A stretch of 38,250 bases of DNA. It comes from Oscillospiraceae bacterium (lineage in GTDB: Bacteria; Bacillota; Clostridia; Oscillospirales; Ruminococcaceae). A program made the position numbers and the translations under genes. Under the pieces are notes generated by a model. That model searched no databases, was not told the origin of the DNA, and saw only the letters and a list, made by a program, of their open reading frames with translations. The DNA lies in assembly GCA_009783205.1 (NCBI GenBank), contig WRHO01000018.1, positions 1-38,250 on the forward strand. The letters run 5' to 3'. The first letter of the stretch is position 1, and each line of letters begins with the position of its first letter. This document shows, piece after piece, positions 5,394 through 34,938 of the stretch.

Positions 5394-5410
5394 TAGGTTG
5401 ATAAAGAATA

Positions 5411-5570
5411 GGCAACCTCCGAAAACCTGTTTCGTGTAATCGTCGAGATGAAAATTTCGTCAGACGAGGAGCTTTTTCTTTAAATATCCGTTGATATTTA
5501 AAGAAAAATCAACGAAGTATGGCGGAATTTTTCAGCCGGCGAGTGCCGGAAGAGGTTTTCGGAGGTTGCC
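5411..5570 (+). repeat. Long-hairpin dispersed element, copy A (candidate structured RNA)
   Basis: A 160-bp intergenic element bounded by a perfect 18-bp inverted repeat (GGCAACCTCCGAAAACCT at 5411-5428 and its complement at 5553-5570). Inside, the conserved strand CGTCAGACGAGG lies 5' of an inner hairpin and AACGAAGTATGGCGG lies 3' of it. The inner hairpin (5473-5508) is a perfect 16-bp stem with loop CGTT. Copies B (16241-16411) and C (31796-31957, inverted) share the core but have unrelated outer stems. In this orientation CGUCA pairs with UGGCG using a U.G wobble. It ends six bases before the ribosome-binding site of the PHP gene. I do not recognise the family. Confidence 0.75.
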
Positions 5571-5590
5571 AATATACGGAGGATTGCTTA

Positions 5591-6448
5591 ATGAAGGCGG
5601 ATTTACATTGTCATACTACGCTTTCCGATGGCTCGCTCGGAATAGAAGAGGTTATTGCACAAGCGAAGCGTAATCAATTGGACTGTATCGCCATTACCGA
5701 CCACGATACACTTTCCTCAATGTCGAGGGCGGCGGTTCTCGGAAAACGCTACGGGGTGGATATTATCCCCGCCGTTGAGTTCTCCGCATATGACGGAAAA
5801 CGCAACTCAAAGGCGCACCTAATTTGTTACAATCCTCAAAAGCCCGACCGCCTTGAGGGGTTGTGCCTTCGCACCTGTGAAATGCGAAAGCTTCGAAGTA
5901 AGAATATGTCGTTAAAGGTTATAGAAAACTATCCTATTACATTAGAGAATATAATAAAATATGCCGCGGGAAGTAAGGCGATTTACAAATGTCATATTAT
6001 GCACGCGTTGATGGATTACGGATACACAATTGATTTATACGGGAGCGTTTATGAAGGTCTTTTTGATATAAACGACGGATTATGCGCCGACATTGTTCGC
6101 GGCGAAATAGACGAATACCCCGAGGTGAAATTTGTGTCACAGTTGATTCGTTCTGCGGGCGGTATCGCGGTTTTAGCGCACCCTAAGGTTTATGATAATT
6201 TCGATTTGCTCGAAGAATTGGCAGAAGGCGGGTTAATCGACGGCGTTGAGGTTTGGCATTGTTCAAACACCCCCGAGGACAATGAGCATATATTAAAAAT
6301 TGCGGAAAGGTATGACCTTATCACAACGGGCGGTTCTAATTTTCACGGATTTTATAATCATTATCCTTTTCCGCTCGGGCATTTTACAACGCCACAGGAA
6401 TCATTAGACAGAATAATGCGAAAAAAAGAAAGCAAAATAAAGGTATAG
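5591..6448 (+). CDS. PHP-domain phosphoesterase (TrpH/YciV-like)
   Basis: 285 residues. The N-terminal metal motif DLHCHTTLSDG carries H6, H8 and D13; ITDHDT, the glutamate in VEFSAY and a late LAHP motif complete the PHP pattern. Relatives hydrolyse nucleoside 3',5'-bisphosphate (pAp) or the 5' ends of short RNAs. The last motif, usually GSDFHG with Asp and His as metal ligands, reads GSNFHG here (N250, H252), so one ligand is changed. The start is ATG 5591 after TACGGAGGA; an upstream in-frame start would lie within hairpin element A and would add repeat-derived residues. The 5' untranslated region is almost entirely that element. Cytoplasmic; exact substrate unknown. Confidence 0.88.
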   Translation: MKADLHCHTTLSDGSLGIEEVIAQAKRNQLDCIAITDHDTLSSMSRAAVLGKRYGVDIIPAVEFSAYDGKRNSKAHLICYNPQKPDRLEGLCLRTCEMRKLRSKNMSLKVIENYPITLENIIKYAAGSKAIYKCHIMHALMDYGYTIDLYGSVYEGLFDINDGLCADIVRGEIDEYPEVKFVSQLIRSAGGIAVLAHPKVYDNFDLLEELAEGGLIDGVEVWHCSNTPEDNEHILKIAERYDLITTGGSNFHGFYNHYPFPLGHFTTPQESLDRIMRKKESKIKV

Positions 6449-16240: not shown

Positions 16241-16411
16241 TTCTTAGAAGTTGTGTTCATAGACGAATCGTTTAGATTTCGAGCGAATTTTTCGTCAAAC
16301 AAGGCAAAAATTTTGCGAATATCCATTGATATTTAAGAAATTTTTAACGCAGTATGGCGGAAAATTCGCCGAAAGATGAGCGGTGATGTCTATGAATACA
16401 GCTTCTTAAAG
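16241..16411 (+). repeat. Long-hairpin dispersed element, copy B (candidate structured RNA)
   Basis: A 171-bp element filling the gap between two minus-strand genes. Outer arms 16241-16264 and 16388-16411 pair at 19 of 24 positions by Watson-Crick plus three G.U. Next inward, GCGAATTTTTCGTCA (16283-16297) pairs with TGGCGGAAAATTCGC (16355-16369) over 15 bp with two U.G. The inner hairpin has AAAAATTT/AAATTTTT below and AATATC-CATT-GATATT above. The conserved loop strands are AACAAGGC and AACGCAGTA. Core matches copies A and C; the outer stem does not. No clear plus-strand promoter lies ahead of it. Confidence 0.75.
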
Positions 16412-31767: not shown

Positions 31768-31796
31768 TTGACTTTTCGGCAAAGCTATGATATAAT
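31768..31796 (+). promoter_or_regulatory. Promoter of hybrid sensor kinase
   Basis: TTGACT at 31768-31773, 17-bp spacer, TATAAT at 31791-31796. The predicted start near 31803 lies in the 5' arm of hairpin element C, so this transcript carries the element in antisense orientation relative to its conserved core. Confidence 0.8.
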
Positions 31797-31957
31797 ATAC
31801 TCCTTAACCACTAAATATTACACCGTTTTTTGAATATTTTCCGTCATACTGCGTTGATTTTTTTCTTAAATATAAGCGTATATTCGCGAAAAAATCGCCT
31901 TGTCTGACGAAAAATATTCTGCAAAATCACTGCAAAATTTAGCAGTTAAGGAGTATA
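31796..31957 (-). repeat. Long-hairpin dispersed element, copy C (candidate structured RNA, inverted)
   Basis: A 162-bp element whose core reads on the minus strand. Outer arms start TATACTCCTTAAC on both strands and pair over about 27 bp. Then GAATATTTTTCGTCA pairs with TGACGGAAAATATTC (15 bp, one U.G), followed by loop strands GACAAGGC and AACGCAGTA. The inner hairpin has GATTTTTT/AAAAAAATC below and AATATA-CGCT-TATATT above. On the minus strand five helix imperfections are G.U and none is A.C. The core matches copies A and B; the outer stem does not. Confidence 0.75.
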
Positions 31958-32022: not shown

Positions 32023-34938
32023 ATGATTATAAAGCGACTACATATGAGAACGACGCAGATGTTTTCGGCGATTATTGTTATAATTGCCGTTACGCTCGGT
32101 TGTACGGGCTGTGTACGTGAAAAAGCTTTACCGCAATCCTTATTTGAAACAACTGAAGAAGGCGTAATTTTCACCGACTTTCATGATATTCCGGATATAA
32201 CCGATGAGGAAATCGCGGCAATTGAAGAGCTTCAAAAAAAGTATACAACCTTTATATACGGTATGACGCCGAGTACAGAAACCTTTAAAGATAACAACAG
32301 CGGCGAAATCAAGGGGTTTTCCAAGTTTTTGTGCGAATGGCTTACCGAGTTATTCGGCATAGAGTTCATTCCGGCGCATATTGAATTTAACGAATTTCTC
32401 GATAAATTCATGAGCGGCGAAACGGCGTTCACCGGGGACATAACGCCGACGGAGGAGCGGAAGAACTATTTTCATATGACCGACGATATAGCCACCCGCT
32501 CTGTTCAACATTTCAGAATAAAAGGCAGTAGCTCGATTCAAGCAATAGAAGAAGAACGATTGCCGCGGTATGCTTTTATAGAAGGAACATCGACGATTGA
32601 AGACGTTGCGGCGCGTTTAAATGAGGAACAATATGAAGCCGTATTTTTTAATAATATTGATGATATTTATGCCGCTTTAGAAAACGGCGAGGTGGATTCC
32701 TTTTTAAACGAGAGTACACAGGAAAGCTTTTTTGATTATTACAGCGATGTTTACGCCGAAAGCTTTTACCCCGTTATATTTAGTCCGGTGGCGTTATCGA
32801 CGGCTTTATCCGAACTCGAGCCAATTATTACTGTCGTCAATAAAGCCCTTCATAACGGCGCGAAGCCCTATTTGAACGAATTATACAATAAGGGATATGA
32901 GGCGTATAAGAAAAACAAATTCCAAACCTATCTGACGGACGAGGAAAAAGCATATCTTAATTCTGCCGAGTCCATTCCTATCGCGCTTCAATATTTTAAT
33001 TATCCTACCGTTTTTTACGATACACACGAGAAAAAATGGGACGGAATCGCGGTGGATTTATTGAGCGAGGTCGAGAAAATTACGGGATTAACATTTAGAA
33101 TTGCGAACGAAATGAACGCCGAGATGGGTGAATTAATCGCAATGTTAAACGACGGAAGGGCGCATATGTTCTCCGATTTGGTGTATTCCGATGAAAGGGC
33201 TCAGTATTATGAGTGGGGCGAGGTAAAATTTTTAGAAGACCAATACGCGCTTTTGTCAAAAGCGTCTTTCCCCAATCTGTCGTTATCGGAAATACCCAAC
33301 GCGAGAATCGCGCTTATTAACAATACCGCTCATTGTGAAATGTTTAAAACGTGGTTCCCCGACGCACACGATGTAAAACAATACGAGACGGTTGACGAAG
33401 CGTTTTTTGCAATGGAAAACGATGAATTTGATTTGGTTATGGTATCGAAAACAAAGCTTCTTTTATATATAAACTATTATGAATATTCGAGCTATAAAAT
33501 TAATTACTTGTTTGACCATTTTTATAAAGCCTCGTTCGCTTACGGCAAAGAATATACCGTTTTGCGCGACATTGTTGATAAGGCGTTATCGCTCGTTGAT
33601 GTGGATTTTGTTGTTGAACAATGGATGACAAAATCATACGATTACAAGTCACAAATTATAATGTCTCAGCGACCCTGGCTCATAGGGGCGATTTCTCTTT
33701 CGATTGTTATTATTATTTTAACAATGGTTCTGTTTATACGAAGCAGTCATATGACCTCCGAGTTGATGAAGGCAAAGAAACAGGCGGAGATAGCGAGCGG
33801 CGCGAAATCGACATTTTTAGCAAATATGAGTCACGAAATACGCACGCCCATGAACGCCATTATCGGTATGACCGTCATTGCCGAAGCAACCGACAGCACC
33901 GAGCGGAAGAACTATGCTATCGAAAAAATAAAAGAGGCTTCTTATCACCTTCTCGGTGTAATAAACGATATATTGGATATATCAAAAATTGAGTCGAACA
34001 AATTTGAGTTGTCGACGAGCGAGTTTGAGTTTAATAATATGCTTCAAAAGGTCGCCGGTATTGTCGCCTTCCGCTTAGAAGAAAAGTCGCAAAGCTTTAC
34101 GATGAACATTGACGAGAATATACCGAGCATAATAATATGCGACGACCAACGCCTTTCACAGGTTATTATAAATCTATTATCCAATTCAAATAAATTCACC
34201 CCCGAAAAAGGCACAATTGAGCTTAACGCAAAGCTTGAACACAAAGACAATTACGGCAATTATACAATCAGAATAAGCATTACGGATACCGGAATAGGTA
34301 TAACCGAGGAACAAAAGGAAAAGCTTTTCCATTCGTTTGAACAAGCCGACTCAAATACGTCGAGAAGGTACGGGGGGAGCGGCTTAGGTCTCGCTATTTC
34401 AAAAAATATAATAGAAATGATGGGGGGCGAGATAACTGTGGAATCTAAAATAGGAAAGGGTGCGACCTTCTCCTTTACGTTTAAAGCAGAAGAAGGCACT
34501 AATAATAAGACAACCGATATAGTTCCCGAAAAACAAAATCAACGTAAAAAGCCCCAAACCGTCTCTTTTAAAGGCTGTACAATGTTGTTGGTAGACGATA
34601 TTGCGGTTAATCGTGAAATTGTTGAGTCGTGGCTCGAAGCAACGGGAATAAAAATAGACAGTGCCGAAAACGGAGTCGAGGCGGTCGATATATTAAAAGC
34701 AAACCCGGATAAATACGACGTTATATTTATGGATTTACAAATGCCGGAAATGGACGGCTACGAGGCGACCCGACAAATCAGAGCTATGAATAAAGAAATA
34801 CCTATTATCGCAATGACTTCAAATGTTTTTAAAGAGGATATTGACAAATGTCTTAATACGGGCATGAACGGTCATATAGGAAAGCCGCTCGATTATGAAG
34901 AATTATTGGATATTCTCCGTACCTTTATGGGCCCGTGA
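32023..34938 (+). CDS. Hybrid sensor histidine kinase with two periplasmic-binding-type sensor domains
   Basis: 971 residues. N-terminal membrane anchor or lipoprotein-like signal (VTLGCTGC; lipobox not canonical). Two extracellular SBP_bac_3-type domains follow (about 50-295 and 310-540; the second has [11 protein letters not shown] and [17 protein letters not shown]). One membrane helix at about 549-570, a short coiled coil, HisKA with phosphoacceptor H604 in [13 protein letters not shown], HATPase motifs ([24 protein letters not shown]), and a C-terminal receiver domain with D904 in [14 protein letters not shown] and the late K in GKPLDYEEL. The layout resembles BvgS/EvgS-type sensors of small molecules. 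No response regulator gene adjoins. ATG 32023 follows GAGGTAGGG. Element C occupies its leader. Confidence 0.93.

Follow-up and report, generated by a model that had tools for sequence, protein, structure and literature searches.

Three hairpins of a clostridial contig are MITEs whose folded core is kept while their ends change

Three long hairpins lie in the window, by which we mean the whole stretch of 38,250 nucleotides analysed here (contig WRHO01000018.1 of an Oscillospiraceae bacterium). We found that they are MITEs and not one fixed RNA gene, that their core is selected as a single-stranded fold, and that their ends are swapped while the core persists. In a normal MITE it is the other way round: the centre drifts between conserved ends. 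The explanation that we favour, and hold to be probable, is a MITE superfamily in which exchangeable ends surround an ancient folded module, most probably RNA, that is likely bound by an RNA-binding or RNA-processing factor. In the accessible part of the literature, bacterial MITEs are described genus by genus and through their ends; a strand-specific core would unite many of them, Correia elements included, into a superfamily, and the old question about the nature and the persistence of Correia elements becomes general and testable.

The three hairpins and their family in the genome

The sequence-only reading had described three hairpins of about 165 bp around a common core, and all three are indeed present in the window, where the core pattern matched three times as against no match in 100 shuffles. 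Each copy forms one long hairpin (z of about -10), and none of 200 shuffles was equally stable. The terminal letters of the window copies are GGCAACC, GAAGTTG and TACTCC. The edges that this reading gave for copy 1 (5411-5570) stand, while copies 2 and 3 are trimmed by their target duplications to 16247-16405 and 31798-31955; likewise, the strands that it saw as shared are present in all three copies, but the core of copy 3 sits on the minus strand. The elements and their parts are as follows.

5411..5570, plus strand: MITE copy 1, subfamily A, 160 bp, ends GGCAACCTCCGAAAACCT
5407-5410 and 5571-5574: target duplication of copy 1, AATA, 4 bp
5458..5525, plus strand: core of copy 1, G31/A85 variant, CGTCAGACGAGG ... 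AACGAAGTATGGCGG (model match 5436-5548)
16247..16405, plus strand: MITE copy 2, subfamily B, 159 bp, ends GAAGTTGTGTTCATAGAC
16244-16246 and 16406-16408: target duplication of copy 2, TTA, 3 bp
16293..16360, plus strand: core of copy 2, A31/C85 variant (model match 16271-16382)
31798..31955, minus strand: MITE copy 3, subfamily D, 158 bp, ends TACTCCTTAAC
31796-31797 and 31956-31957: target duplication of copy 3, TA
31841..31909, minus strand: core of copy 3 (model match 31819-31931)

A comparison with Rfam and a covariance-model search of the genome had both been proposed along with the hairpins. No Rfam family matched the window at the gathering threshold, and none matched the loci of the window copies (L015-L017) or the loci L062, L101 and L144 at E<=1. 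In the genome, the covariance model gave 45 matches at E<=1, the weakest of them at 3.8e-8, and the strict pattern found 22 copies in 1.9 Mb, with none for its reversed control. The arms of the copies fall into ten types, A to J, among which A and H as well as C and D are visibly related, while E and J are single-copy types (the core scan behind this typing had 51 rows, several of them still false). Copies of the same subfamily have their arms in common and their flanks then diverge.

We looked at target duplications in five subfamilies (A, B, C, D and F) and found three kinds. Exact 4-bp duplications flank 5 of the 9 copies of subfamily A (P = 2e-9, computed on 5 of 10 rows, the row L009 being a chance match in other DNA), exact 3-bp duplications (TNA) flank 5 of the 7 copies of subfamily B (P = 7e-8), and exact TA duplications were seen throughout C (5/5), D (6/6) and F (2/2), 13/13 together. 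All 29 copies of these subfamilies are 157-160 bp long despite the unrelated ends of A, B and the TA types. By our own arithmetic, this length (L001-L022, L160-L189, L265-L278) comes to about 15 turns of B-DNA.

The elements are therefore described as MITEs by the usual features: they are short and dispersed, lack coding capacity, and carry terminal inverted repeats and target duplications. The outer arms had been called unrelated; the A, B and TA-type ends do differ, but each arm is that of a repeated subfamily and not unique. The view that such a pattern speaks against transposon copies is not supported, given the fixed ends and target duplications within subfamilies, and the ends that match those of transposons in sister genomes (see below).

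The fold of the core and its strand

An alignment of 58 representatives (A1, from which L103 and L029 had been removed out of 60) showed 83% of cells paired, as against 65% when shuffled. Cells changed on both sides numbered 376, compared with 137 in the shuffled alignment and at most 222 in slid controls. This covariation over controls, together with the strand-specific fold presented below, bears out the claim of the sequence-only reading that structure is under selection.

That reading had also called the asymmetric internal loop conserved, and judged by looser scans it is the most conserved part, nearly invariant as C30 N31 A G G C / A A C G N85 N86 G87. In A1, positions 23-26, 29-30, 32-34, 82-84, 86-91 and 93-95 are largely fixed by the search pattern, so that their invariance proves little, and the fair evidence comes from looser sets, namely 58 weight-scored representatives and 51 proteobacterial loci with arms, which too favour the motif. 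In these sets C30, A32, G33, G34, A82, C83 and G87 are kept in 57-58 of 58 and in 51 of 51, C35 in 48/58 and 50/51, and G84 in 55/58 and 45/51. The outer pairs covary: subfamilies F and G carry switched pairs at 26-91 and 25-92, and pair 29-88 is, in Proteobacteria, G-C in 23 loci, A-T in 21, T-A in 4 and G·T in 2. The search pattern leaves positions 31 and 85 free, and these two covary, in part non-canonically (Fisher, 4e-10), with A/C 38, G/A 12, A/T 3, T/A 3 and A/A 2 among the representatives and A/C 41, T/A 5, G/A 3 and A/A 2 among the proteobacterial loci. In addition, position 28 faces position 89 as a G·A mismatch in 52 of the 58 representatives but in only 32 of the 51 proteobacterial loci; another 16 of these 51 have a standard pair there.

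Template switching can perfect hairpin arms. Considering that palindromes are perfectible by mutation alone, we compared the types of mismatch, since perfecting by mutation has no means of polarising them; under quasi-palindrome correction, as with dsDNA cruciforms, G·T and A·C should be equally frequent. On the core strand, in counts that are not fully independent as the copies are related, the arms of the 58 copies hold 141 G·T versus 21 A·C mismatches, and 123 A·G versus 13 C·T. The same excess of G·T over A·C was found at 21 or more pairs from the core (106 versus 8) and, in 30 copies with distinct arms, from 19 pairs out (48 versus 6); it is weaker in the inner stem (52 versus 32, P = 0.04). 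Forty proteobacterial loci outside the first set gave 64 G·T versus 8 A·C with conserved core wobbles excluded, and by copy G·T was above A·C in 23 and below it in 5. In view of this strand asymmetry we rejected quasi-palindrome correction as the source of the compensatory change. The core strand is also the more stable one in 56 of 58 copies with RNA parameters and in 58 of 58 with DNA parameters. As a tool, the count of G·T versus A·C mismatches provides an in-silico test by which selection on structure can be told apart from palindromes having been perfected by mutation.

These counts bear on the idea that several transposons have ordinary MITE families, that gene conversion made the centres of these families alike, that quasi-palindrome correction produced the compensatory changes, and that the core has no function. 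The ability of template switching to perfect arms speaks for it; nevertheless, we regard this idea as very improbable, since mutational correction is strand-blind and yet both separate sets (141:21 and 64:8) are polarised. Moreover, imperfections last, among them T·G pairs, a bulged A and the mismatch of G28 with A89, and the core motif is common to several phyla.

G·A mismatches in unrelated arms bunch at distances of 6-9, 16-19 and 26-29 nt, counted from the core (38 of 60, with 30% expected), in windows that were picked after seeing the data and that recur about once per helical turn, the strongest period being 9-9.5. We propose that the centre functions single-stranded, in a fold whose polarity is fixed and which comprises the internal loop, the inner hairpin and arms with G·A mismatches about every ten pairs.

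As for the nature of the core-strand product, RNA is more likely than ssDNA because the end zone, 31-48 pairs out, favours G·T over A·C (46 versus 2) and not A·G over C·T (3 versus 3). If the folded strand were DNA, a strand-specific ssDNA structure, extruded at replication forks or on uptake, would be recognised in cis by a protein of the host or of a transposon, to the benefit of the element's transposition or replication. With such a structure would agree the core strand favoured by DNA parameters in every copy, the constant length of about 15 B-DNA turns in subfamilies with unrelated ends, and a selection that seems to act on element lineages, orientation to genes being random. However, DNA mismatch stabilities are such that A·G should be favoured too, which is not what the end zone shows, and we consider folded DNA a serious but unlikely alternative to RNA.

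Ends of the elements and their gene neighbours

To follow the ends, we derived 27 end types from the copies and looked for them in 16 loci of the genus that hold transposases. MITE ends were placed correctly in 5 of the 16, in sister genomes (L282 and L289-L292). In the IS630-type remnants L289-L292 of genome G017, a TATAGTCGATTAACTTAA-like end stands directly after the transposase and differs in 2-3 of 18 bases from the ends of L032/L049, MITEs that lie in other genomes; these ends match MITEs of G020 and G006, and not those of G017. The ends of the core-MITEs L025/L039 enclose the IS5-type element L282 of genome G042, whose transposase remnant (L282:1292-1961) has, as its left end, half a MITE core joined to it at the hairpin tip. 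This fusion might represent an intermediate stage in the exchange of ends. In L287, an end with 2 mismatches points away from the transposase, and the other ten transposase loci, L281 and L284 of the window's genome among them, gave no end match at <=2 mismatches. At 3 mismatches, two of these ten (L279 and L280) show misplaced end matches; therefore, for L291 and L292 it is position, and not score, that carries the argument. The window genome's own PF01609 transposases (L281, L284) lack the window ends, and the window's three end types found no transposon counterpart in the 16 transposase loci.

Cores and ends were also compared between copies. The set of 124 distinct copies contains 156 pairs whose cores are identical to at least 93%; 29 of these pairs have outer arms that agree, on each side, in no more than 60% of positions. 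For example, L032 and L124, both in G020 by matching coordinates, are identical over 67/67 nt of core between unrelated arms, those of L032 being IS630-type and those of L124 carrying the AGAGCTTGTTGACAC end of an IS5-like kind. That such a match occurs within one genome, between arms that are unrelated, also agrees with gene conversion, as the reading of a core without function would have it. The sequence-only reading had named as contrary to its view the outcome that searches would meet the core solely in fragments of a MITE whose ends are conserved; the MITE part of this came true and the conserved ends did not, as the core is conserved while the ends vary.

In the superfamily that we favour, the outer 20-30 bp would be transposon ends, IS630-type with TA, IS5-type with TNA and a third type with 4-bp targets, for which no transposon was found in the 16 transposase loci. 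Different transposases would move different subfamilies in trans, a movement that we infer from the ends shared with two transposon families in sister genomes. Template switching among copies, or gene conversion, would be what retains the core when ends are exchanged.

The following features neighbour the window copies, the two genes serving as context.

5591..6448, plus strand: PHP-domain gene, its ATG 20 bp past copy 1 (listed as ORF 5519-6448; we ourselves place the start at 5591)
32023..34938, plus strand: hybrid sensor kinase gene that follows copy 3
31768..31796, plus strand: sigma-70-like promoter TTGACT-17-TATAAT, 11/12 matches

A promoter scan of the stretch gave 2 sites, with 1.8 expected. 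The predicted promoter at 31768..31796 would produce an antisense transcript of copy 3 that heads to the sensor-kinase gene. Its -10-like box (TATAAT|A) ends on the first base of the target TA of copy 3, and the insertion target overlaps the promoter-like site.

Gene context was judged on 30 rows with enough flank, one of which is a false core hit. The 29 true copies are all intergenic between called ORFs (overlap of <=60 bp allowed), and their orientation is random: the upstream gene is on the same strand in 13 of 29 and the downstream gene in 14 of 28. For the 28 copies with both neighbours called, the gaps are tandem in 16, divergent in 7 and convergent in 5. With no orientation bias, read-through transcripts are not obviously the selected thing, and random orientation to genes suggests a benefit to the element and not to particular host genes.

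The same data weigh on the proposal of a host cis-regulatory RNA (a leader, a terminator or an RNase III site) that was kept for regulation and spread secondarily by transposition. Copies 1 and 3 do lie upstream of genes, and a precedent exists in Correia elements, whose transcripts are bound and cleaved by RNase III according to the accessible part of the published account (PMC2649163). On the other hand, orientation is random over mixed gaps, scans found no terminator-like site at copies 1 and 2 and one weak site at copy 3, and gene contexts vary among the window copies, so that we judge a host regulatory RNA highly unlikely. As part of the MITE superfamily, a core-strand transcript would be bound by an RNA-binding or RNA-processing factor, for which RNase III on Correia transcripts serves as precedent. 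Such binding might render gene-adjacent insertions tolerable or regulated, and carrier lineages would thereby persist.

Distribution among bacteria and known repeats

The strict pattern occurs in 10 of 149 genomes, its own included, all of one genus. A scan of species genomes revealed at least 110 stretches, mostly in Oscillospiraceae and other Clostridia, the other carriers being Pseudomonas, Nitrosospira, Bacteroidetes MAGs and one Thermoleophilia MAG. The search of related Clostridia that had been suggested from the window thus found the core in Oscillospiraceae and other Clostridia and, beyond them, in Proteobacteria and Bacteroidetes MAGs. When 28 of these stretches were folded, 26 had the standard core pairs in a hairpin; the exceptions are L081, which folds otherwise, and L103, which is without a left arm. 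Model matches were present in all 14 genomes tested through loci, ranging from 1 to 140. Sampling the order of Nitrosospira, we obtained matches at E<=0.001 in 65 of 250 genomes, and in the class of Pseudomonas 64 of 274 genomes match at E<=1e-6, the centre genome being counted in both cases; among the best 58 such loci listed, the motif is present in 52, of which 51 have arms, and absent from 6. The strict core had no match in viral contigs. In the betaproteobacterial loci L224, L226, L230, L233 and L235, a second stretch lies about 20-80 bp past the core or core-like hairpin and consists of CAACCC..GGGCTGGG.. together with an inversely oriented half core that resembles CTGCGTTGT, which suggests a putative compound element with two cores.

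The sequence-only reading knew of no named repeat with this layout; in fact, Correia elements (CREE/NEMIS) bear the same core motif. Whole Correia elements were drawn from viral-collection contigs by means of the published repeat, and the test matrix was built solely from non-neisserial copies and from loop positions only. The 106-bp form (CREE106) scores 26.2 bits and a 155-bp form (CREE155) 26.3 bits, where the maximum is 30.3 and the median of members 27.6, and each of these scores was equalled by 1 of 20,000 shuffles; the motif had been narrowed after a wider matrix, with the covarying outer stem included, gave 56, 612 and 498 of 1,000 shuffles as high. Model R1 gave no match on 15 Correia loci at E<=10, so the Correia link rests on the motif test and on anatomy.

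This anatomy is close in several respects. Correia elements carry RACAAGGC and CAACGCNGTA at a hairpin-constrained spacing, and resemble the window core in GACAAGGC ... CAACGC.GTA, with a 41-nt spacing in the 106-bp form. Like the window elements, they have an asymmetric loop that ends palindromic arms and are dispersed mostly between genes; like subfamilies C and D, they have TA-flanked ends. They differ in their terminal repeat, TATAGTGGATTAA..., which is not that of the window ends and is lacking in the window copies, and in length, being about 105 or about 155 bp long where window-type elements are 157-160 bp. As for TA target duplications, subfamilies C, D and F have them and A and B do not, the duplications of copies 1 and 2 being 4-bp and TNA. 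By our own arithmetic, the two published Correia lengths are near 10 and 15 helical turns. Binding of IHF to Correia elements has also been published, as far as the accessible text goes.

We put forward, as a plausible but tentative idea, a mobile RNA or ssDNA module that spans phyla and has an evolutionary continuity of its own. This core would move between transposons by taking on new palindromic ends and be read by a factor conserved among widely differing bacteria, Correia elements being only its first-described local form. In its accessible part, a 2009 paper states that the Correia repeat is confined to Neisseria. We sought this repeat in 16 genomes and in phage records and found none, and in plasmid records it was present in two N. 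gonorrhoeae entries. These two (NZ_CP119140.1 and NZ_CP119142.1) are chromosome-sized, 2.17-Mb Neisseria gonorrhoeae records within the plasmid collection.

Other short repeats share some of these features. RUP of pneumococcus and MITEAba12 are described, in the accessible parts of their reports, as short and non-autonomous, with the ends of resident transposons and a proposed mobilisation in trans (PMC2229807, PMC6382973). The core-MITEs are likewise short and non-autonomous, with ends that, in sister genomes, are common to transposons. They are unlike MITEAba12 in that their centre is conserved across phyla and their ends vary, whereas the terminal repeats are the most conserved part of MITEAba12 in the accessible section of its report (PMC6382973). 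ERIC of enterobacteria is also a long imperfect intergenic palindrome, and AAGGCG ... AACGCAG can be seen by eye in one E. coli copy; for that copy the best model E was 0.69 and off the palindrome (filters off), and the motif score was reached by 646 of 20,000 shuffles, neither of which supports ERIC as a member of the family. The betaproteobacterial repeat BRE is tandem-variable in the accessible description, and no account of the wider core family was found in the accessible parts of the open-access literature searched. Finally, two Rfam sRNA-Xcc1 matches above gathering (L254:178-262 and 697-781) lie on a contig that carries a Correia element, outside that element.
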